The position numbers and the translations under genes are program-made. This document shows, one piece after another, positions 6,205 to 62,987 of a DNA stretch of 64,000 nucleotides (the stretch's first letter is position 1; each line of letters opens with the position of its first letter). The notes beneath the pieces are model-generated. The model ran no database searches, was not told the origin of the DNA, and saw only the letters and a list, made by a program, of their open reading frames with translations. Source of the stretch: Ichthyenterobacterium magnum (GTDB lineage: Bacteria; Bacteroidota; Bacteroidia; Flavobacteriales; Flavobacteriaceae); contig NZ_RAQJ01000003.1 of the NCBI RefSeq assembly GCF_003610635.1, positions 310,001 through 374,000 of the forward strand, written 5' to 3'.

Positions 6205-9200
6205 TTAGAAAATATAACGTAATCCAAATTGTGCTTGCCAACGTGATGCAAGACTTGTATCATAATTAAATGTTTCTATTAAGTCTGGATTAAATGTATA
6301 TGTTGGTACATTGTTAGCATCTATACTATCTATACCAATTGGTTGTACACTATTTGGTTGTTGTACAACACCCCAATCACTATTAAGTAAGTTACCTAAG
6401 TTAAGAATATCTACACTAAACTGAATGGTGTTGTATTTATCTTCACCTACTTTAATTTTATAATCTTGTAGTAGCTTAACATCCCAACGACTTCTCCATG
6501 GTGCTTTTGCACCATAACGTTCAGCATAGCTTCCTCTGTTATCACTTAAATAATCATCTTGTTGTATATAAGCTTCAAAAGCTTCAGCTTGTCCTGGTGC
6601 AGCAAAATTCATTTGTTGTACTTCACTAGTTGTAGGAATATATAATAAGTCGTTAATACCAGAACCATCACCATTAATATCTCCACCATAAGTATAATTA
6701 AAACGTCCACCTTGAGCATATTCAAAAAAGCCTGAAATAGTGGTTGACCACTTATCATTACCATAGACCCATCTTTTGCTAGCAACACCAACAACTCTAT
6801 GTGTATCACCATACTTAGAGTATGATAACACGTCATCATTTACATTACCAGAAATTGGATTACCCGCAAAAGCATCACTAGTAATTTCTGCCTCAATAGA
6901 GTTTACATCTTTTGAGTTTAAATAACTATATGCTAAACTCGTAAATAACCCATTATCAAAGTTCTTTTGCGCTTTAATAACGGCGTTAATAGTTCGTCCT
7001 TTATCAGAATTTGTAAATACGTAAGCATTATTAATAAGGTCACTTGCTAAATAAATTGGTCTATTATCAACTCCACCTAAAGTTCCTGAAGGTTCTGTTA
7101 ATCCCCAATTTTGTACGTGAGCACCATTAATATCTTTAGTATACGCTAAATCACCTGTTAAAATAACACCATTTTCAAGTTTATAATCTACACCTAAATT
7201 AGTTCGCCATACTTGAGGAAACTTATAATCAGGATCTACTGCTTGTAAGAAAAATACATCTGGATTAGCAATTTGGTTTCCTAACCAAACAAAAGGGAAA
7301 CGCCCTGTAAATAACCCAGAACCTCCTCGAAGTTGAAATGTTTTGTCACCTCTTACATCATAATTAAATCCTACTCTAGGAGATATTAACCAATCATTAC
7401 TTGGCATATTTGTATTATCTATTAATACTGTTTCTCCAGTATTAGGATTTACATAAGGAATATCTGGTACAACTACGCCTCTATCAATAACTTCTTGAGC
7501 TTTCTCTGCAGAATCGAAAAATAAAGGTTTATCAAAACGCAAACCATAGGTTAACTTAAACTTTTCGTTTACGTTCCATTCATCCTGAATGTAAAATGAT
7601 AACTGACCTACATTAGTTTCGGCTAATGTCCAACCGCCTGGAGTTCCAGGAGGAACTGCATTATTAGCATTAAATACATTTTGTGCGTTAGCAAATGTGC
7701 CTACATAATCATTAGCATTAAAATCAGCGATATCTACACCACCAAAAAGGTCAAAACCATAAGCTGTTAAATTAAAAGAGTTATCAAATTGAAATTTTTC
7801 AAATGAAAAGCCAACAGTATAGGTATGATTTCCTTGATAGAAGTTTAAATTATCTGAAAATTGCAATACTTTCTGGTCTAACTTATTATGCACAGAAAAA
7901 GGTTCATGACCAGCTATGATATAATTTGACCCATCTTTAGTAATATTAATTGATGGTCCAGGCGTTGAAAACGGATTTCTAAAATCATCAAAATGTGTAT
8001 ATCCAATTTGTAATTTATTTGATGCTGTATTAGATAAGGTTGAGTTTAATTCTATCTGAACAGATTTTAGCTTATTATTAATTTCGTAACCAGAATTTTC
8101 AAACTGTAATGTATTCGCATTTGGACCTCTAAATCCTATAGCTGTTGGATGTGCAGGTTTTTCTTTTGATGCGTCTAACCAGTTATAAATTACAGCTAGC
8201 CTGTTATTATCATTAATATTCCAATCTAGTTTTATAATCCCTTTTGTAGATTCTGAGCCAAATGTAAAATCTTTATATGCTCCTGGATTATATCCTATAT
8301 CTAAAAGCGCTTGTTGTACAGCCATTAAATCTGTTTCTAATACTCTAGATTCATTTATTGCACCACTTCCTGTATTAGGCACCCAACCATTACTTCCTAA
8401 ATCTGTTCGTTCATCTTTTTCAAAATTAGCAAAAAAGAATAATTTGTTTTTTATAATTGGCCCTCCAATACTAACTCCATATTGATTTTGTTCTAGCTTA
8501 GGTTTAACAACATCTTCACCTCTAATTTTTCCTCCTGTAAAGCTTTCATTTCTTGTAAAACCATAAACAGTACCATGAAACTCATTTGTTCCACTTTTGG
8601 TTACTGCATTTACAGATGCTCCAGTAAAACCAGATTGTGTAACATCGTAAGGTGCTGTTGTTACAGTAATTTGATCAATTGCATCTATAGATATAGGTGA
8701 AGAATCTGTTTGTCCGCCAGGCTGTGCAGCATCTAAACCAAATGGGTTATTAAAAATTGCTCCATCTAATGAGAAATTATTGAACTGATCATTTCTACCT
8801 CCAAACGAACCACCACTAGCTGTTGGTTCTAATCTTGTAAAATCGTTTGTTGACCTAGATATTGTGGGAAGTCTAGTTAACTCTCGTCTGCCAACTGCTG
8901 TCTCAGCTCCTGTTCTATCATTACTAAAAGTACTTGTGCCAGAAGTTGCTGTAATAATTACAGCATCTAGTTGCTCACTATCAGTAACCATAGAAACATT
9001 TATATTTTCGGTTTCGCCTAAAGTAAGGTATACATCACTAAATGTTTGGTCTTTGTAACCTACATAACTTATAGTTATTGTATATGGACCACCAACTCTT
9101 AAATTGAGTAAATTGTATCTACCATCAAAATTTGTAGCGGCACCAAACTTAGTTCCTGTTGGCGTATGAACTGCCAACACGTTAGCTCCAGGTAAAGGAT

Positions 9201-52731: not shown

Positions 52732-53435
52732 TTTTACTTATAAAACTATTTTTAACACATATAATTGGAGATTTCTTTTTACAACCAGAAAAATGGGTTA
52801 AAGAAAAGGAAGTCAAGAAACTTAAATCGCCAAAATTGTATTTGCATATTGCCATTCATGTGGCCCTTTTATTTATTATGCTTTGGGATATTACATTATG
52901 GCCAGTAATAGTTATTATTGGTGTGTCACATTTCATTATTGATGCTACAAAACTTTTAATCCAGAAAGAGGAAACAAAAAAAATGTTCTTCTTTATAGAC
53001 CAGTTGCTACATATATTTATTATCGTCTTGGTCTATTTCTTATTTACAGAACAAACATTTTCTCTCAACGGTTTAATAACAGAACACAATCTTTTACTCC
53101 TGAGTTGTGTTTTATTTTTAACAATTCCCGTATCTATTATTATGAAAGCTATTTTTTTAAAATGGGATATTTCAAAACTAACTGAAAATAACGAATCTCT
53201 AAAAGACGCTGGCAAATATATTGGTATATTAGAACGAATTCTCGTTTTTACATTTATTATTGCCGACCATTGGGAAGCTGTTGGGTTTTTAATTACTGCC
53301 AAATCTGTTTTTAGATTTGGAGATTTAAAAGAATCTAAACATAGAAAATTAACCGAATATATTTTAATAGGAACACTTATAAGTTTTGGTATTGCTATTG
53401 CTATTGGCTTATTATATTTATATGCTAAAAATTAA
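52728..53435 (+). CDS. DUF3307 membrane protein, partner of SatD
   Basis: 235 residues with about six membrane helices. Opening LFLTHIIGDFFLQPEKWVKEK is the DUF3307 hallmark; IIGVSHFIIDATKLLIQ and DQLLHIFIIVLVYFLF add a His/Asp pattern within the membrane (H.IGDF, SHFIIDA, DQLLH). Such polar residues within helices could bind a metal or act catalytically. Overlaps satD by 4 bases. Its 3' end overlaps the convergent TonB receptor gene by 11 bases. Confidence 0.88.
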   Translation: MILLIKLFLTHIIGDFFLQPEKWVKEKEVKKLKSPKLYLHIAIHVALLFIMLWDITLWPVIVIIGVSHFIIDATKLLIQKEETKKMFFFIDQLLHIFIIVLVYFLFTEQTFSLNGLITEHNLLLLSCVLFLTIPVSIIMKAIFLKWDISKLTENNESLKDAGKYIGILERILVFTFIIADHWEAVGFLITAKSVFRFGDLKESKHRKLTEYILIGTLISFGIAIAIGLLYLYAKN

Positions 53436-55725
53436 CTCTAAAAAAAGCATTGGGTGTTATGCCTAAAGAACTCTGTCTAACTTCATTAATTGCATCATCA
53501 TTAATTCTAAAAAAATTATTAACCTCATTACTTCTATCTAATACATTCCAGATTGAAATCCCCAAATTTGCATTCGCTTTTTTACCTAATTTAAAATTAT
53601 AAAGTGCAGACACATCTAATCTTAAATAGCTTTTTAATTTACTTGTATTAGTTGCTTCAAAATTAATCTCATTATCTACTATCTCATGACCATTACTTGG
53701 ATTTGTTGTTGGTTTCCCCGAATGCCAATTTAATCCGCTAGAAACTTTAAATCTACTAGAAACATAAGCCGTACCAAAGGTTATTGCGTGCGTAATATCA
53801 TAATTACTAGGAAACGAATTTTCTGGAAGTGAATTAAATGTGTAATCGTTATTCATATAAGAATAACTTAACCATGCGTTAAAATTTTTAATATGTTTCC
53901 TTAATAAAACATCTAAACCAAAAACATCATAACTGCCGCTTGTTCTAATAAATTCGTATTGATTTTGGAATCCTTGACTTTGCGTTGTGATACCATCTAT
54001 AGTCTTAAAATAGCTTTCGGTACTTACTAGCCATCCTTTGCTAGTATAATTAATACCTACAGATATTTGTTTACTCAGTAAAACAGGTATATCATTATCA
54101 TTAGAGAGTTGCCATCTACGTTTTTCAATGCCTAAAAAATCATTTTGGAAATTAATAATTTGTGAAGTATTTTGATGCTTCATTTCTCCTAAAGCTTCAA
54201 ATGTAAATGCATCAGAAATCTTATAATTAAAACTAAGCCTTGGTTCTAAAAGATGCTTTCTAAATTTATCTATATAGTTATATCTTAATCCAAAATTAAA
54301 GTTAGTTTTCCTATTTAATGATTTAAACTTTAATTGAGAGAAAAGTGCGTGGGTTCTAACAACTTCTGATACTAACTGTCTAAAAACAGGAACATCTACA
54401 TCATTTAAATTTGTGACTTTTGTTTCAACAAAATGATAACCATTACGTAGTTGCAGCTTATTGTTTAATTTATAATTTGCTTTTAATTTTAGGCTTGTTT
54501 CTGAAACAACATTTTCTTGCAAAAACCTTTGATTATCAATTATATTGGCATTAATAGCTTTTAACTTATAATCTGTTTCATAAATCTCGAGTGAAGATTG
54601 CCATTTATTATTCCAAATTCTATTATAATTTATGCCTCCTGCAATACTATTTTGAGTTAGATTACTCTGCCTAGATTCTTCAACAGAATTTACCATAGCG
54701 TTTTCGTTAAACATAAGCTCATTGTCAACATTAATGAAATTGAGTTGTAGTTTATCTTTATCATTTATTTTATAAATCCATCTTAAAGACACATCATAAA
54801 AATCGAATGTTTTATCAGAATTGATGATACTGTTTACATTGGTTTCAACTTCTGTATCTTGCGAAATTCTATCAAACAAATTACTATATGTAGGTGTTTC
54901 TAATACATCACTAATTGATTTTCTTGCTGCAAATTGAAGCGAAGAGTTTTCGTTTACAGGAACATCTACAAACCCATTTACATCTATAAAGTTAGCTCCA
55001 AAACTGCCTTTAAACTCTTTATTAATTTTTTGCTCTGTTTTCATTGAAATGGTTCCAGAAACGCCATCGGTAAAACTGGTTTCTGTTCCATTTTTTATTA
55101 AACTTACTTCTTGCGTTATTTGCGGATTGTACATAGAAATAAGCCCAAAAAAATGTCCAGACTGGTACATTTTAATATCATCCCAAAGTATTAAATTTTG
55201 ATCATGTGTTCCTCCTCTAATATTTATATTTGAAACCGTTTCATTACTACTTAAAATACCAGGAAATGCTTGAATTGTTTGCAATACATCTGTATCTATA
55301 AGGCCTGGAAGAATATCAAAATTTGAAAAATCGACTTGAAAAGACCCATCATTTAATTTATTTATTCCTTTAACCAAATAACTAGATATGACTACTTCTG
55401 GAAGTGATTGAAGTTTAAAAAACAACGTTTTATTATTGGCATTAACCAGAATAAAATTATCACTAACGATGAAAAAAGACAAACCTGTTAATTCTTCAAT
55501 ATATTCTAACGCTTTTTTTAAAGATAACTCTAAAGATGGTGGTTTGATTAGTATACCTTCAACACGATCCTCAGCATAGTTAAACTGAACACTATATTGC
55601 TGTTCTAAAACCTTAAAAATTTCTACAAGAGGTTTTGCACCAACTTCTTCTTGAGCATTTAAGCTAAAAGAAAAGGCGATAAAAAGTGTCAATACTAATA
55701 AAAGCAGCCTACTTTTTATTCCCAT
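53425..55725 (-). CDS. STN-domain TonB-dependent receptor (FecA-like transducer)
   Basis: 766 residues from the ATG at 55725; the frame reaches a TTG three codons earlier. Signal peptide (LLLLVLTLFIAFSFSLNAQ), then an STN/secretin-like signalling domain (about 25-105: PLVEIFKVLEQQYSVQFNYA, ALEYIEELTGLSFFIV), a plug (DTDVLQTIQAFPGIL; VSNINIRGGTHDQNLILWD) and the barrel ending NAFFRVNF. The STN domain allows signalling to FecR, encoded upstream with 17 bases of overlap. The ligand is not a known siderophore by context and is unassigned. Confidence 0.92.
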   Translation of the reverse strand: MGIKSRLLLLVLTLFIAFSFSLNAQEEVGAKPLVEIFKVLEQQYSVQFNYAEDRVEGILIKPPSLELSLKKALEYIEELTGLSFFIVSDNFILVNANNKTLFFKLQSLPEVVISSYLVKGINKLNDGSFQVDFSNFDILPGLIDTDVLQTIQAFPGILSSNETVSNINIRGGTHDQNLILWDDIKMYQSGHFFGLISMYNPQITQEVSLIKNGTETSFTDGVSGTISMKTEQKINKEFKGSFGANFIDVNGFVDVPVNENSSLQFAARKSISDVLETPTYSNLFDRISQDTEVETNVNSIINSDKTFDFYDVSLRWIYKINDKDKLQLNFINVDNELMFNENAMVNSVEESRQSNLTQNSIAGGINYNRIWNNKWQSSLEIYETDYKLKAINANIIDNQRFLQENVVSETSLKLKANYKLNNKLQLRNGYHFVETKVTNLNDVDVPVFRQLVSEVVRTHALFSQLKFKSLNRKTNFNFGLRYNYIDKFRKHLLEPRLSFNYKISDAFTFEALGEMKHQNTSQIINFQNDFLGIEKRRWQLSNDNDIPVLLSKQISVGINYTSKGWLVSTESYFKTIDGITTQSQGFQNQYEFIRTSGSYDVFGLDVLLRKHIKNFNAWLSYSYMNNDYTFNSLPENSFPSNYDITHAITFGTAYVSSRFKVSSGLNWHSGKPTTNPSNGHEIVDNEINFEATNTSKLKSYLRLDVSALYNFKLGKKANANLGISIWNVLDRSNEVNNFFRINDDAINEVRQSSLGITPNAFFRVNF

Positions 55726-56617
55726 TAATGACAACTTGATTGGGTGTACTTATTTTATAGTTTAAGTCCATTGGCTCTGTAATAGACATAAGGGCATTTT
55801 CAATATTATTATGAGTAAATCCGCCAGAAAACAAACGTTTTTCATCTGTATTATTAACCTTTACATGAACACCATACTGACGCTCAAATTCTAAAATCAC
55901 TCTAGAAAAAGGAACCGCTTTAAATGTGCTCACATTTTTTGTCCATTGCGGAACTGTATATGTTATTTTATCTTGAGTAAAAATAGTATTTAAAACACGA
56001 TACGTATCTCCAGCTAACAACTGTCTTGTAATAGTATCTGAAGTTACGCGCACAATACCTTCAAAGCACTTAACTTCAAAATAATCATTGCGCTGTTTTA
56101 CATTAAACTCTGTTCCTACTACAGTAACAATCCCATTACTAGTAACAACATCAAAGGTTTTACCTTTTGCTACTTTAAAATATGCTTCGCCATCCAATTC
56201 GAGCGTTCGTTTATTTTCCCAATTGCTTTTATTATAAACAAGCTTAGAATCTGCATTTAACGTTACTTGAGAATTATCTGGTAATTGAATTGTTGATTTC
56301 TGATTAACTAGGGTTTCTATTTGCGTCAGGTTATTATAAAAGAAAGAAAAATAAATAGCAAAGCCAATAACTAAAACACTTGCCATACGAAGCATTGGCT
56401 TAAACCAATCTATTTTTTTTATAGGTGTAGTATCTTGGTATGCCTCTTTAAATGTGTTAAAATCATCAACATCAGAAAAGTTTGATGCTTTAAAATGTTT
56501 TGCGTGGTCTAAAACATCAACATGTAATTGATAATCATTTAGCTTTTCAAATGCTTCTTTTTCTGCATCAGTCAACTCATTTTTTAACCACTTTTCTATT
56601 AAATAGTCTTTATCCAT
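55709..56617 (-). CDS. FecR-type anti-sigma regulator
   Basis: 302 residues: a cytoplasmic N-terminus (YLIEKWLKNELTDAEKEAFE), a membrane helix (about 80-97, MASVLVIGFAIYFSFFY), a FecR beta domain (STIQLPDNSQVTLNADSKLVY, TLELDGEAYFKVAKGKTFDV, VVGTEFNVKQ) and a C-terminal STN-like domain (FSRVILEFERQYGVHVKVNN). It relays receptor occupancy to the sigma factor. Between sigma gene and receptor. Confidence 0.94.
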   Translation of the reverse strand: MDKDYLIEKWLKNELTDAEKEAFEKLNDYQLHVDVLDHAKHFKASNFSDVDDFNTFKEAYQDTTPIKKIDWFKPMLRMASVLVIGFAIYFSFFYNNLTQIETLVNQKSTIQLPDNSQVTLNADSKLVYNKSNWENKRTLELDGEAYFKVAKGKTFDVVTSNGIVTVVGTEFNVKQRNDYFEVKCFEGIVRVTSDTITRQLLAGDTYRVLNTIFTQDKITYTVPQWTKNVSTFKAVPFSRVILEFERQYGVHVKVNNTDEKRLFSGGFTHNNIENALMSITEPMDLNYKISTPNQVVINGNKK

Positions 56618-56664
56618 AAACGGCTTTATTACTTATATAACAACTAAAACATTATTTCTCCTTA

Positions 56665-57189
56665 TTATTTTAATTTAAATCCTTCTAGTTCAGTTTTTAA
56701 AATTTTAAAAGCGCTATATATTCTATACTCAACAACTTTTTTTGTTACACCCAAGAGTTCTGCAATTTCACTATGCTTTTTTCCTTCAGCTTTACTTAAT
56801 AAAAATGCAACGCGCTGATCCTCACTTAAACTAGAAAGTACTTTTTTATATTTTTCGAGAAACTGTTCTTGTTCTAAAATAAACTCAGGCGTCTCTTTTG
56901 TATAATGCTTTGGTTTATTTTGCTTGTACTTTAAAACTACCTTTTGATGCTTAATTTCATTAAGCGTTAAGTTATTTGCAACTGTAAACAAAAACGACTT
57001 TGCGTTATCTAAACTCACTTGTTTACAATTGTCCCAAAGCTTAATAAATGCTTCTTGCACTTTGTCTTTTGGATTAAATTGAGCACCATATTTATAGTAC
57101 AAAAAATCGTGTAAATCTTTTGAATGTTGTTTATAAACACGCTCAAAAACTGGTGTTTCGCATACATTGTTAGTGCAATTCTCAGGCAA
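56665..57189 (-). CDS. FecI-like ECF sigma factor (TTG start)
   Basis: 174 residues. Region 2 (FERVYKQHSKDLHDFLYYKY, PKDKVQEAFIKLWDNC) and region 4 (LSEDQRVAFLLSKAEGKKHSE, VEYRIYSAFKILKTEL). The start appears to be TTG at 57189; no in-frame ATG lies upstream before the preceding gene and no Met is near the N-terminus. Heads the sigma/FecR/TonB-receptor trio and diverges from the exported-protein cluster at 57300. Confidence 0.9.
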   Translation of the reverse strand: MPENCTNNVCETPVFERVYKQHSKDLHDFLYYKYGAQFNPKDKVQEAFIKLWDNCKQVSLDNAKSFLFTVANNLTLNEIKHQKVVLKYKQNKPKHYTKETPEFILEQEQFLEKYKKVLSSLSEDQRVAFLLSKAEGKKHSEIAELLGVTKKVVEYRIYSAFKILKTELEGFKLK

Positions 57190-57299
57190 TGGTCTAATAG
57201 TTTTGCTTAAAGGTAGATAAATATTTTTTTAATAAAAGTTCAGGAGTTTTAAAAGCCAAGTTGTTATATTATAAATGCGAACACGTTAATAAACGCATT

Positions 57300-58376
57300 A
57301 TGACATCTAAACTAAATAAAACTACATATTTAATCATTATAGCTTTCTTGATGTTTTCATCTTGTAGAAAGGAAGAAATGGAGCTCATTCAAGCTCCAGA
57401 TGAAGATACAGTTGAAGCAAACTCTAACATAGCATCTTTGTTGCAAAGAACAGCTTTAAATGATGGTTCTGAAGACAATATAATAGATTCTGCAAATTGT
57501 CTAAACGTAAAACTTCCAACAACTGTAACCGCTAATAATGAAGAACTTATTATAAACTCTAGTAGCGACTATTATAGTATTGAATATATTTTTGATGAAA
57601 CTGATGACGATGTAGACGTATTAGATATTCAATTTCCTATAACAATAATTCAAGCAGATTTCACTGAAATTGTTATTAATAGTATTACTGCGTTACATAA
57701 TTATGCTAGTAACTGTAATGGTGAAAACGAAATTGATGATGATATAGAATGTATAGATTTTCAATACCCATTTTCTGCTTCAGTTTTTGATATCAATACA
57801 GAATTATTTTCAACTGAAACATTTACAAATGACAATCAGCTATACACTTTTATTACAACTATTAATGATAGTAATATTGTAACTCTAAACTTTCCTATTA
57901 CGCTTATACATTCAGACCAATCTCAAGTAATTGTAAATACTCTAAATGAGTTAGAAAGCTCTATAGAAAATGCTCAAAACAATTGCAATGAAGATGACGA
58001 TTATGATTATAATGACGATGATTGTAATACTTGTACACCATCACAAATTGAAGCCATATTAATTAATTGCCCAAATTGGCATGTAGATAAGTTAAAAAGA
58101 AATGATACTAATTATGACTCTGCTTATGAGGGTTATGACTTCAACTTTTTTAATGATGGAACACTATCTGTTTTTTGGTCAAGTATTACTGTTTATGGAA
58201 CATGGATAATTAGCGGAACTGGAAATAACATTACCGTAATAATAGATATACCCAGCTTACCGCTTTGCAACAATAATTGGAGATTACAAGAAGCTGGAGA
58301 AAACAATGATGAATCAAGAATAAATTTTGTTGTAGGAGATAATGATAGACTGAGATACAGAAACAATTGTAACTAA
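57300..58376 (+). CDS. Acidic repeat lipoprotein, first gene of the exported cluster
   Basis: 358 residues from the ATG at 57300 (earlier frame positions give no signal peptide). Lipobox FSSC (Cys22) followed by RKEEMELI. Two tandem modules of about 80 residues start at CLNVKLPTTVTANNEELI (from about 67) and CIDFQYPFSASVFDINTELF (from about 148). Each ends with a FPITxI...D..VIVN.. block and an Asp-rich linker containing Cys-Asn (SNCNGEN, NNCNEDDD). The C-terminal third has YDFNFFNDGTLSVFWSS and TWIISGTGNNITV, like a lipocalin-like domain. No family is assigned. Acidic Asp stretches could bind calcium. A perfect-stem terminator follows. Confidence 0.7.
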   Translation: MTSKLNKTTYLIIIAFLMFSSCRKEEMELIQAPDEDTVEANSNIASLLQRTALNDGSEDNIIDSANCLNVKLPTTVTANNEELIINSSSDYYSIEYIFDETDDDVDVLDIQFPITIIQADFTEIVINSITALHNYASNCNGENEIDDDIECIDFQYPFSASVFDINTELFSTETFTNDNQLYTFITTINDSNIVTLNFPITLIHSDQSQVIVNTLNELESSIENAQNNCNEDDDYDYNDDDCNTCTPSQIEAILINCPNWHVDKLKRNDTNYDSAYEGYDFNFFNDGTLSVFWSSITVYGTWIISGTGNNITVIIDIPSLPLCNNNWRLQEAGENNDESRINFVVGDNDRLRYRNNCN

Positions 58377-58432
58377 ATAATGGCTAAAATGAAAAAGAAA
58401 AATTTAGCATATCTGTTAAATGCTTTAGCCAA

Positions 58433-58470
58433 AAAACTGCTTCAGTTAAAGTTCTGAAGCAGTTTTAAAA
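58433..58470 (+). terminator. Strong terminator after the repeat lipoprotein gene
   Basis: AAAACTGCTTCAG (58433-58445) pairs perfectly with CTGAAGCAGTTTT (58454-58466), 13 bp. A further inverted repeat TGGCTAAA (58381-58388) and TTTAGCCA (58424-58431) lies just before it, so the spacer holds two stem-loops. Confidence 0.85.
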
Positions 58471-58480
58471 AAATATAATT

Positions 58481-58858
58481 ATGAAAAAATATATTGCTCT
58501 TATTGCTTTAATATTAATTATCATAATTGGTTATAACTATATCTATAAAGACCATAGAGATATACATAAAGAACAACCCAAATTTACCATAAGCTCAAAT
58601 AATATAAATGCAGAATTTATAAATAATCCTGTATTATCTCAGGAAAAATACTTGAACAAAACTATTGAAATCTCTGGTCAAGTAACAGAAGTAAACTCTA
58701 ATAATATCACTTTAGATAATAAGGTGTTTTGTTTGTTTACTAACCAAATAATTAAAACAATAAAAAAAGGTGAAAAAGTAAAAATTAAAGGTCGTGTTAT
58801 AGGATACGACGATTTGCTAGAGCAAATAAAGTTAGATCAATGTTCAATAATCAATTAA
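58481..58858 (+). CDS. Exported OB-fold (tRNA_anti-like) protein
   Basis: 125 residues. N-terminal membrane anchor (KKYIALIALILIIIIGYNYIY), then an OB-fold of the tRNA_anti-like type: INAEFINNPVLSQEKYLNKT, IEISGQVTEVNSNNITLDN, VFCLFTNQ, VKIKGRVIGYDDLLEQIKLD, ending CSI. The family in Bacteroidota is periplasmic, not tRNA-binding. It precedes the T9SS protein by 11 bases and is likely co-transcribed. Confidence 0.85.
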   Translation: MKKYIALIALILIIIIGYNYIYKDHRDIHKEQPKFTISSNNINAEFINNPVLSQEKYLNKTIEISGQVTEVNSNNITLDNKVFCLFTNQIIKTIKKGEKVKIKGRVIGYDDLLEQIKLDQCSIIN

Positions 58859-58869
58859 AATTAAATACT

Positions 58870-59637
58870 ATGAAAAAAAATTACACAATTAAAGGAATTT
58901 TAGCACTAATGCTTATCACATTTATAAGCAATACTACTAATGCGCAAATTAGAATAGTTGAAGTAGATCCAGCAGCAGAAACAGTAAAGATTCATAATTA
59001 TGGTGGATCAACAGTAAATATTGCAAACTATAGGCTTTGCTCTTTAATAGCTTACAGAACATTAAGCTCGCAAACTACAGTACAAAGCGGATCATTAAAC
59101 TTAGGACCAAATCAAGATGTTGTTGTATCTATTAATGGCGGTGGTTATTTAAATGATACTGCAGCAGATTTAGGCTTATATCTTGCTACAGGAAGTTTTG
59201 GTGATGCAACAAGAATGGTAGACTTTATGCAATGGGGAAGCGGAGGAAATGGAAGAGAAAGTGTAGCTGTAACAAAAGGTATTTGGACAGCTGGTACATT
59301 TGTAAATGTTTCGCCACCATATGAGTATACCGGAAATGGAGGTCAAAACGGAGCATCATTTTGGGATACGTTATTAGGCATAGATGATTTCGAGAATTCA
59401 TCTAGTTTTTCAGTGTACCCAAATCCAACAGATTCTATGCTGAATATTCAATTAAAAAGCGGGATTTCAAATGGAAATCTAGAGGTTTTTGATATACTAG
59501 GAAAGCTCGTTTTAAGCCAAGGTTTAAACTCAGAAAACCTATCAGAAATTAATGTTGCTCATCTTAATAGTGGTTTATATTTAATTAAAATTTCTGCTGA
59601 AGACAAATCTGAAACACAACGATTTATAAAAAATTAA
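58870..59637 (+). CDS. Lamin-tail-like T9SS cargo protein
   Basis: 255 residues from the ATG at 58870. Signal peptide (GILALMLITFISNTTNAQ), a small beta domain (about 31-125: IVEVDPAAETVKIHNYGG, INIANYRLC-like) resembling the lamin tail/LTD fold, then a T9SS type A sorting domain at the C-terminus (FSVYPNPTDSMLNIQL, GLYLIKI, ETQRFIKN). Secreted; probably surface or matrix. Co-transcribed with the OB-fold gene and ended by the snap-back element at 59653. Confidence 0.82.
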   Translation: MKKNYTIKGILALMLITFISNTTNAQIRIVEVDPAAETVKIHNYGGSTVNIANYRLCSLIAYRTLSSQTTVQSGSLNLGPNQDVVVSINGGGYLNDTAADLGLYLATGSFGDATRMVDFMQWGSGGNGRESVAVTKGIWTAGTFVNVSPPYEYTGNGGQNGASFWDTLLGIDDFENSSSFSVYPNPTDSMLNIQLKSGISNGNLEVFDILGKLVLSQGLNSENLSEINVAHLNSGLYLIKISAEDKSETQRFIKN

Positions 59638-59652
59638 CATATACTAAATAGA

Positions 59653-59783
59653 GACTGTTTGAAAAGTGATTTTATTGTCATCTTGAGCTAAGTCTAAAAA
59701 TCTCAACCATCTATAAATTAGAACTTTGATTTTTTAGAGATTCTTCATTTTCATTCAGAATGACACTTTTCAAACAGCCTTTT
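59653..59783. repeat. Snap-back repeat element as terminator (copy 3)
   Basis: CTGTTTGAAAAGTG (59655-59668) pairs perfectly with CACTTTTCAAACAG (59764-59777). Inside is a forward unit GTCATCTTGAGC...AAATCTC (59678-59704) and a reverse unit GAGATTCTTC...CAGAATGAC (59737-59763). It lies between the T9SS gene and the DUF5777 gene. Confidence 0.75.
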
Positions 59784-59798
59784 AAATTCAATATACTA

Positions 59799-60650
59799 AT
59801 GAAAGTTTTACTACTGTTTCTATTTACTTTTTTTACTATTTCTGTAATAGCACAAAATGATTTGCTTAGTGAGATAGATACAGATTCAACACAAAATGAT
59901 TATGTATCTGCAGCATTTAAGGGATTAAAAATCGTGAATTTTGAATCTACAAAACTTGTTGCGAAAAAAGAACTCACTTTTATTGTATCGCACAGATTTG
60001 GTAGTATTGAGAATGGATTAGATAATTTTTTTGGTCTAGATGATGCAGTTACAAGACTAAATTTTGTTTATGGAGTTACTGATGGGTTTAATATTGGTGT
60101 TTCGAGAAGTTCATTTCAAAAAGTGTATGATATAGCATTAAAATATCGTCTTTGTAGACAAAAGAAAATTGGTTCTCCTTTTACTATTGTAGGTTTTAAT
60201 TCTATTACAATAAATACTGGTCTTGAAAAAGAAAACTTACCAAAATTGGAGTTTAAGCATCGCTTAAGCTATGTTATGCAATTACTAATTTCAAGAAAAC
60301 TTAATACAAATTTTTCAGTAGAAATTGCGCCAACTTTCTTTCATGATAACTATGTGTTTTATAATCCACAAGATAATTCTCAATTTGCTCTTGGTATTGG
60401 AGGTAGACATAAACTAGGAAAACGTTGGTCAATAAATATGGATTATGGATGGCATTTAAATAGAGCTAGTAATTCTCCATTCAAAAACCCATTATCTATA
60501 GGTTTTGATTTAGAAACCGGAGGACACGTCTTTCAAATGCATTTTTCTAACGCTCAAGCCATGAACACAAACAGTTTTTTAGGCCAAGGAACAGGGAATT
60601 GGAGTGATGGTAACATCTATTTTGGATTTAATTTAAGTCGTGTATTTTAA
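59799..60650 (+). CDS. DUF5777 outer-membrane beta-barrel protein
   Basis: 283 residues from the ATG at 59799; an earlier ATG at 59760 lies inside the repeat element and gives no signal peptide. Signal peptide (KVLLLFLFTFFTISVIAQ), then a strand-rich barrel with AFKGLKIVNFESTKLVAKKEL, FIVSHRFGSIENGLDNFFGL and IGVSRSSFQKVYDIALKYRL, typical of DUF5777, ending in FGFNLSRVF. Ligand unknown. First gene of the set with the cytochrome-like lipoprotein and YceI genes, 10-12 bases apart. Confidence 0.88.
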   Translation: MKVLLLFLFTFFTISVIAQNDLLSEIDTDSTQNDYVSAAFKGLKIVNFESTKLVAKKELTFIVSHRFGSIENGLDNFFGLDDAVTRLNFVYGVTDGFNIGVSRSSFQKVYDIALKYRLCRQKKIGSPFTIVGFNSITINTGLEKENLPKLEFKHRLSYVMQLLISRKLNTNFSVEIAPTFFHDNYVFYNPQDNSQFALGIGGRHKLGKRWSINMDYGWHLNRASNSPFKNPLSIGFDLETGGHVFQMHFSNAQAMNTNSFLGQGTGNWSDGNIYFGFNLSRVF

Positions 60651-60660
60651 ACTATAAATC

Positions 60661-61020
60661 ATGAAAAACAGTATTGCAACATTATTAATTTCTAGCTTAA
60701 TACTATTTAATTGTACTAACGCTAGTGAAAATGATTTGATAGAGACTATACCATTGCCTACAGTTGTAACCTACACTTCTAATATAAAAACGATAATAGA
60801 TAACAATTGTATAGAGTGTCATAACAATCCTCCAATAAACGATGCACCAATGCCATTATTAACTTATGAAAATGTTAAAGATGCAATTGAAAATAGAGGT
60901 TTAATAAATAGAATCTCTTCTGATGATTTAGCATTTTCTATGCCTTTTGGTGGTCCAAAATTACCTCAAAACTTGATAGACCTCGTTATACAATGGGAAG
61001 CAGATGGTTTAATAGAATAA
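60661..61020 (+). CDS. Small lipoprotein with a c-type haem motif
   Basis: 119 residues. Lipobox LFNC (Cys18) followed by TNASEND. CIECH (about 55-59) is a CxxCH haem c attachment site after IKTIIDNN; MPFGGPKLP could supply the distal Met, and LVIQWEADGLIE closes the domain. Looks like the short cytochrome-like module found next to DUF5777 and YceI genes in Bacteroidota. Probably an electron carrier in the periplasm or outer membrane. Confidence 0.82.
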   Translation: MKNSIATLLISSLILFNCTNASENDLIETIPLPTVVTYTSNIKTIIDNNCIECHNNPPINDAPMPLLTYENVKDAIENRGLINRISSDDLAFSMPFGGPKLPQNLIDLVIQWEADGLIE

Positions 61021-61032
61021 CACATAACCTAA

Positions 61033-61578
61033 ATGAAACATTTAATTTATATACTCTTACTTATTTCTATTTCTAGCTTTTCTCAAAGCAAATACTATAC
61101 AAAAGTTGGATTGGTAGCATTTGAAGCTTCTGTTCCTTCTTTTGAAGAAGTGAAAGCAAAGAACACTTCAACAACGGCTATTTTAAATACTGAAAATGGT
61201 GAATTTGCAGCTCTACTTCTAGTTAAAGGATTTCGTTTTAAAAATGCTTTAATGGAAGAACATTTTAATGAGAACTATGCTGAATCTGACACGTATCCTA
61301 AAGCAATATTTAAAGGTAAAATTGTTGGCTTTTCATCTGAAGAATTAAATCAAAACTCTAAACATTTGAGTTTTAATGGTGAACTGACATTTCACGGTAT
61401 TTCAAAAAAACTAGAATCAATTAGTATTGATGTTAAAAGAATTGGTAACATAATTTATATCAAAGGACATTTTGAAGCTAATGCATCAGACTATGAAATA
61501 AAAATCCCGAAAATTGTAAGAAATAAAGTATCAGAAGCTATTAAAGTGTCTTTTGAATTTGAACTTAATCAGAAATAA
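61033..61578 (+). CDS. YceI-family exported protein
   Basis: 181 residues. Signal peptide (KHLIYILLLISISSFSQ), then a lipocalin-like YceI domain (VGLVAFEASVPSFEEVKAKN; HFNENYAESDTYPKAIFKGK; GELTFHGISKKLESISIDVK). YceI proteins bind amphiphiles such as polyisoprenoids. Last of the DUF5777-cytochrome-YceI set; followed by a terminator. Confidence 0.92.
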   Translation: MKHLIYILLLISISSFSQSKYYTKVGLVAFEASVPSFEEVKAKNTSTTAILNTENGEFAALLLVKGFRFKNALMEEHFNENYAESDTYPKAIFKGKIVGFSSEELNQNSKHLSFNGELTFHGISKKLESISIDVKRIGNIIYIKGHFEANASDYEIKIPKIVRNKVSEAIKVSFEFELNQK

Positions 61579-61606
61579 AAAACCATCAGCAAAACTGATG
61601 GTTTAA
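61577..61606. terminator. Terminator between the YceI gene and the convergent DOMON gene
   Basis: AACCATCAG (61581-61589) pairs with CTGATGGTT (61595-61603) around a 5-base loop, flanked by A on the left and TTTAAT on the right; it can serve both strands. Confidence 0.8.
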
Positions 61607-61630: not shown

Positions 61631-62455
61631 TTATTGTTTCACAAAACGTTTAGTAAGTGTTACATTATCATTAAATACTCTAACTAGATATATCCCACTA
61701 TTCCATTTAGACACATCTATAGATGATGATAACGTACTAATTTCTCCTCTGTAAACTCTTTTCCCTAATACATCAAACACTGAAACATAAGCATTTTCTA
61801 TACTTTGTGTTAAATGCAAATTAAGTCTTGAATGTGCTGGATTAGGTGAAATATAAAATTTATTAGGTGTAGCTTCAACACTATCTGTACTTAGAGTAAA
61901 TGACTGCATAGTTATACCTCTATTCCCGCCATGATAAGCTATAGTATAAGTAAATCCAAACGACCATACTAAATCTAATGAAGCAGCTCCAGCAGAAAAT
62001 ACATAATCGCCATCATGACCTGTATCTGGTAATCTAGTTGCAACAATCTCTCTATTACCTGTTTCTCCATCTATAGTATTAGATACAATTGTCCAATCTT
62101 GATTATCATCTACACTAGGCTCAATACCTTGCGCATTGGTTCCTGGCGTCATCCCTTCAAGACCAAAATAACGATCAGATAAGTTGGTACCATCATAAAT
62201 AACAACATCATTGCCCACTATCATACCTCTTGGTGTTCCACCTAAATCATTAGGATTTCCAAAACCTAAAGCCAAATATTTGCCATCAGGACCACTCAAA
62301 GTTAATGTCACAAGTGTAGAAGTAACGTCAATTTTTGCAGAAAAATTATAATCTTCATCACTAAAGAGTTGCATAGACCCTGTAGTATAAGTTTGACTAA
62401 ATGCTATGTTAGAAAACCCGAACAAGCATAATATGATTAAAGTAATTTTTTTCAT
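61631..62455 (-). CDS. DOMON-like T9SS cargo protein
   Basis: 274 residues from the ATG at 62455. Signal peptide (ITLIILCLFGFSNIAFSQ), then a DOMON-type beta-sandwich (about 24-190: DGKYLALGFGNPNDLGG, GMIVGNDVVIYDG, DWTIVSNTIDGETG, REIVATRLPDTGHDGDY). Such domains bind haem or sugar. Then a T9SS type A sorting domain (FYISPNPAHSRLNLHL, GIYLVRVF, LTKRFVKQ). Secreted, co-directional and one base from the ankyrin protein. Confidence 0.8.
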   Translation of the reverse strand: MKKITLIILCLFGFSNIAFSQTYTTGSMQLFSDEDYNFSAKIDVTSTLVTLTLSGPDGKYLALGFGNPNDLGGTPRGMIVGNDVVIYDGTNLSDRYFGLEGMTPGTNAQGIEPSVDDNQDWTIVSNTIDGETGNREIVATRLPDTGHDGDYVFSAGAASLDLVWSFGFTYTIAYHGGNRGITMQSFTLSTDSVEATPNKFYISPNPAHSRLNLHLTQSIENAYVSVFDVLGKRVYRGEISTLSSSIDVSKWNSGIYLVRVFNDNVTLTKRFVKQ

Positions 62456-62462
62456 AGTCAAT

Positions 62463-62987
62463 TTATTTATTATTAATAAGTTTAAGTATCGCTTCGTTTT
62501 GTGTCATTTTCGCATAATCTAAAGCAGAATCTCCTCTTTTATCTTTTAAAGTAGGATTAGCTCCTGCATCAACTAAAAGTTTGATTAATGCTTCATTACG
62601 ATTAAAAACCGCATAATGTAAAGGGATTTTTCCATTAGCATCTACTTTATTTGGATCTGCTTTAAAGTCTAATAAAGCTTTAACAACTGCTTCTCTATTT
62701 TTATAAACAGCAGCCATTAAAGGTGTACCATATTTACTATTGCCATCTATATCCTTAACTTTACTAGCTAAAAAAACAGCTAACTCATCACTACCTTTAT
62801 AACACGCCAAAGTTAATGGTGAAAACCCATTAGCGTCAACTACATTTATAGTATCAGCATTTATAGACATTAATGCTTTAAGTTCATCTATTGTACCAGA
62901 ACGCGCCACATCAAATATATTCTTTTGCGAAAAAGAAAGTGTAGACATAAATAACAAAACAACTAAGTAAGCATGTTTAATCATCAT
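62463..62987 (-). CDS. Exported ankyrin-repeat protein
   Basis: 174 residues. Signal peptide (HAYLVVLLFMSTLSFSQ) and four ankyrin repeats (ANGFSPLTLACYKGSDELAV, GTPLMAAVYKNREAVVKALL, NGKIPLHYAVFNRNEALI, GDSALDYAKMTQNEAILKL). Periplasmic ankyrin proteins elsewhere support redox enzymes. Here it precedes the DOMON-T9SS gene by seven bases, so the two form an exported pair. Confidence 0.88.
   Translation of the reverse strand: MMIKHAYLVVLLFMSTLSFSQKNIFDVARSGTIDELKALMSINADTINVVDANGFSPLTLACYKGSDELAVFLASKVKDIDGNSKYGTPLMAAVYKNREAVVKALLDFKADPNKVDANGKIPLHYAVFNRNEALIKLLVDAGANPTLKDKRGDSALDYAKMTQNEAILKLINNK

Follow-up and report, generated by a model that had tools for sequence, protein, structure and literature searches.

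A 64,000-nucleotide stretch of the Ichthyenterobacterium magnum genome (the window: positions 310,001 to 374,000 of contig NZ_RAQJ01000003.1, G000:C3:310001-374000, within a 3.0 Mb genome) holds a gene set made of two linked modules. One is a redox module: a membrane-anchored OB-fold protein; a protein exported by the type IX secretion system (T9SS); the outer-membrane barrel DUF5777; a mono-haem c-type lipoprotein, the cytochrome; and a YceI lipocalin. The other is a signalling trio (an extracytoplasmic function [ECF] sigma factor, a FecR-type anti-sigma factor, and a TonB-dependent receptor) that faces one further lipoprotein, here termed LPrep. With a probability of roughly 0.55, the set represents an ancient Bacteroidota envelope redox module, carrying out one-electron chemistry on a quinone or lipid bound by YceI, beside a separate ECF sigma/FecR/TonB cassette. 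Three unrelated one-electron carriers are swapped beside the same barrel, an exchange that is the strongest support for the one-electron proposal. The parts are of known kinds; their combination is new.

Conservation of the putative DUF5777 redox module

Conservation was followed in three samples: a phylum survey of 395 Bacteroidota genomes from 171 genera, with 14 control genomes; a close-relative set, the best 80 of 316 loci from one DUF5777 scan, 70-82 % identical and not independent; and a distant set of 80 DUF5777 regions hand-picked from 59 diverse genomes. (Close loci L010 and L039 end at a contig edge, and L038 is shortened upstream; distant loci L134, L138, L142, and L172 are short.) DUF5777 is present in 153/395 Bacteroidota genomes and 83/171 genera, and in 0/14 controls. 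Its nearest named relatives come from Psychroserpens and Winogradskyella, in keeping with a host in the Flavobacteriaceae.

The initial annotation proposed a gene-neighbourhood comparison for conserved co-occurrence, and the genes do co-occur. The whole set (TonB receptor, FecR, sigma factor, lipoprotein, OB, DUF5777, cytochrome, and YceI) is found at 54/80 close loci. DUF5777, cytochrome, and YceI are co-directional at 77 of the 80; at the other three the cytochrome-YceI pair lies on the opposite strand. Three close loci are partial, two of them (L010, L039) at contig ends. The OB protein is matched at 79/80 close and 22/80 distant loci. Within six genes of DUF5777, the 80 distant loci hold YceI (66), cytochrome (59), OB (22), sigma factor (14, with the model of the window's sigma), ankyrin and DOMON-like proteins (6 each), lipoprotein and FecR (3 each), and TonB receptor (2). 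By chance, 0.0175 YceI would be expected per 14.7 kb, from a mean of 4.9 YceI in 60 DUF5777 genomes.

The exchange of carriers was counted over haem motifs (CX2CH and CX4CH), Rieske proteins, and cupredoxins. An electron carrier lies within four genes of DUF5777 at 70/80 distant loci: haem c at 63 (CX2CH or CX4CH), Rieske at 7, and cupredoxin at 3. In a control, a haem-motif protein lies at offsets 5-7 at 7/80 loci, a comparison of six gene positions with eight and for the haem motif only. In the scanned set, which included five of the seven Rieske-like proteins, Pfam gave five Rieske matches. (Of the unlabelled operon neighbours, 107/194 were scanned and the 25 commonest families reported.) An envelope redox or lipid/quinone-handling role, suggested by the initial annotation, is strengthened by this swapping of cytochrome, Rieske, and cupredoxin partners. 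The one-electron proposal also draws on precedent: YceI lipocalins hold isoprenoids, including ubiquinone-8, and the Burkholderia cytochrome b561 LcoA and YceI protein BcnA are proposed to quench lipid peroxyl radicals (PMC9113575); in the Bacteroidota set, b561 gives way to a c-type lipoprotein, a Rieske protein, or a cupredoxin.

The Rieske-like proteins (L139, L144, L153, L154, L156, L180, L185) often occur in operons without a cytochrome. Some operon cytochromes have CX4CH instead of CxxCH (L115, L131, L136, L152, L158, L165, L175, L183, L187), and the L070 cytochrome open reading frame (ORF; 7888-8540) is internally duplicated, with two haem motifs.

The cytochrome carries CxxCH in 80/80 close orthologues, and residues C50, C53, H54, and M94 are kept in 81/81. 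One haem motif per protein is found in 79/80 orthologues, and two in one. No Pfam cytochrome model reaches its cut-off, despite the CxxCH and distal Met. The window YceI (PF04264, 42.2 bits) is the only YceI found in this genome; a phmmer search with it against the PDB returned a chance match only. None of the ten window proteins scanned belongs to the b561 family.

DUF5777 itself scores 308 bits against PF19089 (cut-off 23.1). Its model is a 12-strand barrel, with a mean predicted local distance difference test score (pLDDT) of 73. The closest folds are FapF, KdgM, COG4313, and NanC (Z 16.6-18.7, root-mean-square deviation [rmsd] 2.1-3.5, 166-205 residues aligned), with weaker matches to FadL/TbuX, down to Z 12; the barrel matches are about 6-13 % identical. 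As modelled, these matches are generic outer-membrane barrels, naming no function. H65 and H243 are kept in 79/80 distant members. (A bis-histidine haem site formed by the two was considered and set aside, as the strand order argues against it.) DUF5777 also has a second context, among ethylbenzene-dehydrogenase-type haem proteins, NrfD, 4Fe-4S, and multihaem proteins. Paralogues in such NrfD/4Fe-4S/haem-protein clusters occur at L117, L122, L130, L146, and L184, a possible respiratory branch.

Between OB and DUF5777 lies an interchangeable cargo slot. The 79 close loci with an OB match hold 67 slot ORFs, of which 66 were Pfam-scanned (the one omitted is the second fragment of L012); at 17/79 there is no ORF in between. 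Pfam finds Por_Secre_tail in 62 of the 66, plastocyanin/azurin (Copper-bind) in 25, LTD in 18, and DOMON and ankyrin in 3 each. By our own hidden Markov models (HMMs), the slot at the 80 close loci is cupredoxin at 26, lamin-tail at 25, DOMON at 3, and other at 13. The cupredoxin seeds keep His-Cys-His-Met in 24/24; His and Cys were selection criteria, and Met was not. The window's slot protein scores 65 bits for Por_Secre_tail (cut-off 27) and falls below threshold for LTD (28.6 versus 34.3 bits).

The signalling trio, its promoter-like elements, and the facing lipoprotein

The window sigma factor matches PF04542 and PF08281 above cut-off, and FecR scores 71.5 bits against PF04773. In the TonB receptor, Plug is above cut-off and an N-terminal FecR_C/STN-like stretch reaches 20 bits (cut-off 24.4). 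LPrep has no Pfam or NCBIfam family match. It travels with the trio, not with the other five plus-strand genes: LPrep and the sigma gene diverge at 54/54 close loci holding both, and at 19/19 further loci holding both (neither is present at L231 and L232); most of the further loci were retrieved via the lipoprotein, with no search for trios lacking it. Elsewhere in this genome (L193, G000:C6:33000-49000) another sigma-FecR-TonB cassette faces a 698-aa LPrep paralogue, beside ffh- and folD-like genes. (Two genes that follow LPrep at other loci, coding for about 443 and 294 aa, were rejected as functional partners of this other cassette; by eye they resemble Ffh and FolD, housekeeping neighbours.)

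A promoter-like element, TTCAGGAGTTTT...AGTTGTTATA, occurs at one spacing in 47/52 sigma-lipoprotein gaps, the window included (49/55 loci in a second count). It lies upstream of the lipoprotein start by 15-40 nt, and in a single case by 105. The window's copy is the sole position weight matrix match in 64 kb. Exact matches to AGGAG-N12-AGTTGTTATA number two in the whole genome, both of them in the window: one lies ahead of LPrep, the other ahead of fecR. With three mismatches allowed, the window holds 4 matches versus 3.3 by chance, which is not above expectation; with two, the genome holds 20 versus 7 for the reversed pattern. On these counts, only the exact pair carries weight. In the close loci, GGAG-N12-14-TTGTT precedes FecR at 36/54, 9-27 nt ahead of the start (0.1 in shuffles), and LPrep at 32/55. 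Sigma dependence of these elements is a prediction from sequence.

A terminator-like hairpin lies between LPrep and OB. A hairpin of this kind is found at 34/55 close loci, conserved in sequence; 8/13 pairs change on both sides, with 93 % of cells paired, on a structure drawn from the window. (It could be a terminator or an attenuator.) At 11/55 close loci the gap is 30 nt or less and without hairpin. Because the hairpin separates LPrep from OB, and because sites lie only at LPrep and fecR, the window's OB-to-YceI genes would, on this evidence, not be a direct trio target, unless by read-through. The direct targets in the window are probably the trio's own fecR-tonB and the facing LPrep.

Relatives are arranged otherwise. 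The motif GTAGGGTA-N14-TGTYTY has 45 matches in 30 genomes, versus 2 for the reversed pattern: 14 at the lipoprotein, 13 on the fecR side, 9 before the OB operon, and 9 elsewhere, so that 36/45 are in the cassette. (The motif was defined partly on the genomes searched; the independent part of this result is genome-wide specificity, not presence.) In genus g2, from the same family as the window host and probably Flavobacterium, 8/8 genomes in which the trio adjoins DUF5777 carry an ECF-type site upstream of the OB-DUF5777 operon. At L111 and L224-L230 the g2 trio points the same way as OB, DUF5777, cytochrome, and YceI, and the L111 gaps are all below 200 nt. The redox operon, too, is probably under the control of such a cassette in some relatives. 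The suggestion, from the initial annotation, that the trio could set expression of the facing genes is therefore borne out in part: the g2 sites and the short hairpin-free gaps speak for it, and the two window sites, the hairpin before OB, and the lack of sites near DUF5777 in four g2 genomes without linkage do not.

At the distant loci, one sigma cluster lies within seven genes of DUF5777 at 24/80: upstream at 20 (three being the trio) and downstream at 4 (p=0.0015, loci treated without correction for relatedness). At 15/80, 14 of them upstream of the module, the sigma gene is followed by a Dma-like protein, comparable to the dual membrane-spanning anti-sigma factors Dma/Das of Bacteroides; there, Dma1 and Dma2 are tied to vesicles and glycan genes (PMC13088901). 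All 15 share the architecture described there for Dma proteins (N-terminal anti-sigma domain, transmembrane segment, tether, and C-terminal barrel): a short N-terminal domain is followed by a hydrophobic segment, 154-286 residues of polar linker, and a barrel-like C-terminal end. OMP barrel models match 9/10 of those scanned, 3 above cut-off. The window holds FecR, not a Dma-type anti-sigma. The comparison suggests that sigma control of the module recurs across relatives; in the window it is putative only.

Other promoter searches added little. TTG-N17-21-TAnnTTTG, which we take to be the Bacteroidota housekeeping promoter consensus, is not above shuffles before OB, DUF5777, cytochrome, or YceI, except before OB at 2/79 versus 0.3, one of the two being spurious (L038). 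A sigma-70 hexamer scan was uninformative (73 found, 67 expected). The sigma-ECF motif of F. psychrophilum, a CGT-box, is unlike the elements here (PMC9723704).

The AlphaFold model of LPrep (mean pLDDT 80) shows beta-alpha repeats and a C-terminal lipocalin-like domain. The lipocalin-like match is fold-level only (VIA-align Z 10.4, rmsd 3.0 over 104 residues), and a Foldseek search with LPrep gave no match at E 0.001 or better. K-(D/E)2 after the lipobox cysteine is a surface lipoprotein export signal, and the CRKEE of LPrep, following the cysteine, fits it (PMC5080379). K, R, or Q plus two acidic residues stands at this position in 26/47 scored LPrep orthologues and in 0/79 scored cytochromes; the lipobox was picked automatically for these counts, with some rows misplaced. 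On this evidence, LPrep is probably at the cell surface and the cytochrome in the periplasm. Repeat lipoproteins of the COG4315/Lipoprotein_15 type occur in or beside the operon at L118 (by Pfam) and at L160, L182, L224, and L226 (by clustering or eye); the one at L224 has its own ECF-type site.

Extent of the gene set

The arrangement of six exported plus-strand proteins diverging from a minus-strand trio is upheld by the ORFs (57300-61578 and 53425-57189, respectively) and their Pfam families; each of the six has an N-terminal export signal, judged by eye (Table 1). The starts of three were revised: LPrep to 57300, the T9SS protein to 58870, and DUF5777 to 59799. The last is the likely start; an upstream in-frame ATG at 59760 falls inside a 129-bp repeat with inverted ends, which has 19 matches in the genome including itself and folds at z -4.1. 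The initial annotation counted this element as the third of three terminators. The other two hairpins hold, and the third is rejected as a dispersed repeat, giving no evidence of a transcription unit. Of the three units drawn from those terminators, the boundary between LPrep and the rest is thus supported, and the one between OB plus T9SS protein and DUF5777 is the repeat element.

The cluster reaches past 61606, to 62987, because a DOMON-like and an ankyrin protein, convergent with the module in the window, co-occur at other DUF5777 loci as well and belong to the set there. The two are found together at 10/80 close loci, in the slot or convergent downstream, and 10/10 loci that hold the ankyrin protein are paired. 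They are together at 6/80 distant loci (6/6 paired), five in the order DUF5777-cytochrome-YceI-ankyrin-DOMON. (Sequence clustering, giving 10 loci and the window, was used here; the 'postY DOMON' HMM label is probably inflated by the common T9SS tail.) The window's DOMON-like protein scores 51 bits for Por_Secre_tail (cut-off 27). It is unmatched by PF03351, which matches 3/66 slot proteins. Nine aligned relatives are 39-52 % identical to it, and one histidine (H174, alignment numbering) is invariant in 10/10.

Table 1. Features of the gene set, in window positions
Feature	Position	Strand	Evidence
TonB-dependent receptor of signalling trio	53425..55734	-	Plug E=1.6e-5; matched at 55/80 close loci
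FecR-type anti-sigma	55709..56617	-	FecR E=7.9e-20, FecR_C E=2.3e-9
ECF-type promoter element AGGAG-N12-AGTTGTTATA before fecR	56636..56662	-	exact match
ECF sigma factor	56665..57189	-	Sigma70_r4_2 and r2
ECF-type promoter element TTCAGGAGTTTT-...-AGTTGTTATA before lipoprotein	57238..57273	+	fixed spacing
Lipoprotein LPrep, surface-type, trio partner	57300..58376	+	beta/alpha repeats and C-terminal lipocalin-like domain
Terminator-like covarying hairpin, lipoprotein/OB gap	58433..58466	+	z -6.65
Membrane-anchored OB-fold protein	58481..58858	+	PF12869 (tRNA_anti-like) E=8e-11
T9SS type A exported protein, lamin-tail-like, in cargo slot	58870..59637	+	Por_Secre_tail E=8e-18
Dispersed repeat, 17-nt inverted ends	59652..59780	.	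genome matches
DUF5777 outer-membrane beta-barrel	59799..60650	+	PF19089 E=5e-92; 12 strands in model
Mono-haem c-type lipoprotein (CIECH; M94 invariant)	60661..61020	+	
YceI lipocalin	61033..61578	+	E=1e-10
Terminator-like hairpin at convergent end	61580..61604	.	z -7.21
T9SS type A exported DOMON-like protein	61631..62455	-	Por_Secre_tail
Exported ankyrin-repeat protein	62463..62987	-	paired with DOMON protein

Proposed function, alternatives, and known systems

Conservation, linkage, carrier exchange, and the promoter-like elements are observed in the sequences; sigma dependence, ligands, localisation, electron flow, and a physiological role are predicted. YceI would hold an isoprenoid ligand, either menaquinone or an oxidised lipid, and the haem lipoprotein would exchange single electrons with that bound ligand in the periplasm. 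DUF5777 would give the ligand, or else some small redox partner, access to the outer membrane or passage across it. The T9SS protein (of blue-copper, DOMON, or lamin-tail type) would act on the outer face. The module as a whole would quench radicals at the outer membrane or carry electrons there, much as proposed for LcoA-BcnA.

Several observations weigh against this reading. At 23/80 close loci (including the shortened L038), OB, DUF5777, cytochrome, and YceI occur with no trio in view, and trio and LPrep are also found standing alone, away from the module. GGAG-N12-14-TTGTT precedes OB at 0/78, DUF5777 at 0/79, cytochrome at 0/80, and YceI at 1/80 close loci; no GTAGGGTA-N14-TGTYTY match lies near DUF5777 in the four g2 genomes where it is unlinked (G057, G084, G257, G289). 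YceI is not specific to the DUF5777 system, because all 80 genomes searched have it, including 20/20 without DUF5777 (mean 4.25). At 10/80 distant loci the four genes on either side of DUF5777 include no carrier (L142 and L172 being truncated), and 12/80 close loci have no T9SS protein. The window's own slot protein is of the lamin-tail kind, not a known redox protein. Finally, LcoA is a membrane b561, and the cytochrome here is a c-type lipoprotein.

Four other explanations draw on the same data. Trio and module might be neighbours by inherited gene order only in the window's lineage, with the trio sensing something unrelated and controlling LPrep and itself. The restriction of exact genomic sites to LPrep and fecR, the covarying hairpin after LPrep, this genome's second trio with an LPrep, next to ffh/folD (other genomes have comparable ones), the loci without a trio in view, and the unlinked g2 genomes all fit; the explanation is nonetheless somewhat doubtful, given the g2 site before the OB operon in every linked genome, the concentration of matches in the cassette, the short LPrep-OB gaps, and the non-homologous Dma-like sigma/anti-sigma pairs that precede the module in other families. 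An unlikely alternative is a trans-outer-membrane conduit, in which the periplasmic cytochrome would send electrons by way of DUF5777, through it or past it, to a T9SS-exported cupredoxin or DOMON haem protein on the surface, for extracellular electron transfer or surface metal or phenol redox chemistry. It would account for T9SS-tailed blue-copper proteins in the slot, DOMON-like proteins there or downstream, carriers exchanged across the phylum, DUF5777 in NrfD/multihaem clusters, and the two conserved DUF5777 histidines. Those histidines, however, would lie at opposite barrel ends, to judge by strand order; nearly every cytochrome has a single haem; a 12-strand barrel is small for a sheathed wire of the MtrCAB kind; and at 25/80 loci the slot protein is a lamin-tail protein without known redox role.

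The barrel's fold neighbours, with the isoprenoid binding of YceI lipocalins (PMC9113575, as cited above), would also suit import or export of a hydrophobe or lipid, handed by a FadL/KdgM-like DUF5777 channel to YceI, with the haem protein as a minor or enzymatic accessory. The barrel matches are generic and of low identity, however, and a carrier near DUF5777 at 70/80 loci is more than an accessory would need, which makes this quite improbable. Least credible is acquisition of haem, iron, or copper, in which the TonB receptor would import a metal complex and the DOMON, cupredoxin, and cytochrome proteins would be metal-binding cargo. The trio has a FecI/FecR/TonB-type architecture, and in Riemerella, iron limitation raises expression of an ankyrin gene located close to one for a TonB receptor (PMC5429918), though its ankyrin family may be a different one. 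Against this stand the module loci with no trio in view, YceI and Rieske partners that are not metal-uptake proteins, and the scan of ten window proteins, which yielded no family for siderophore or haem transport, the FecR-type regulator apart.

The preferred reading, an envelope redox module beside a separate cassette, can be extended, tentatively and with the odds rather against it, to a phylum-wide outer-membrane redox machine not described before. Here DUF5777, YceI, an interchangeable one-electron carrier, and a T9SS cupredoxin or DOMON protein would move electrons or a redox lipid across the outer membrane to surface copper or haem proteins, under two unrelated outer-membrane-sensing sigma switches (FecR/TonB and Dma-like). 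A search of open-access literature found no paper naming DUF5777, and none recognised as describing the gene set. For a widespread domain of unknown function, the proposal offers an envelope redox hypothesis open to test, and it predicts T9SS-exported blue-copper and DOMON proteins as the module's surface partners; a precise promoter sequence allows regulon testing of an uncharacterised sigma-FecR-TonB cassette.

Parts of the set recall known systems. MtrCAB porin-cytochrome conduits likewise encode an outer-membrane barrel with a haem protein; they have a multihaem cytochrome in or at the barrel, as a sheathed wire. The window differs by its mono-haem protein, its small barrel, and the lack of a multihaem cytochrome in the set. 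FecI/FecR/FecA shares the run of ECF sigma, FecR, and TonB receptor, and in the window a promoter-like element also lies before fecR; the other apparent target is a facing surface lipoprotein without named family and with a lipocalin-like end. As for Dma/Das, a sigma factor and a protein of Dma architecture precede the same redox module in other Bacteroidota families, and are absent from the window. The closest likeness to the YceI part is LcoA-BcnA, where a YceI lipocalin is genetically linked to a cytochrome and the quinone-bound lipocalin is proposed to be recycled by the cytochrome in the periplasm (PMC9113575). The main text of that paper contains no word beginning 'bacteroid'. The DUF5777 barrel, the OB protein, and the T9SS cargo are additions of the Bacteroidota set.

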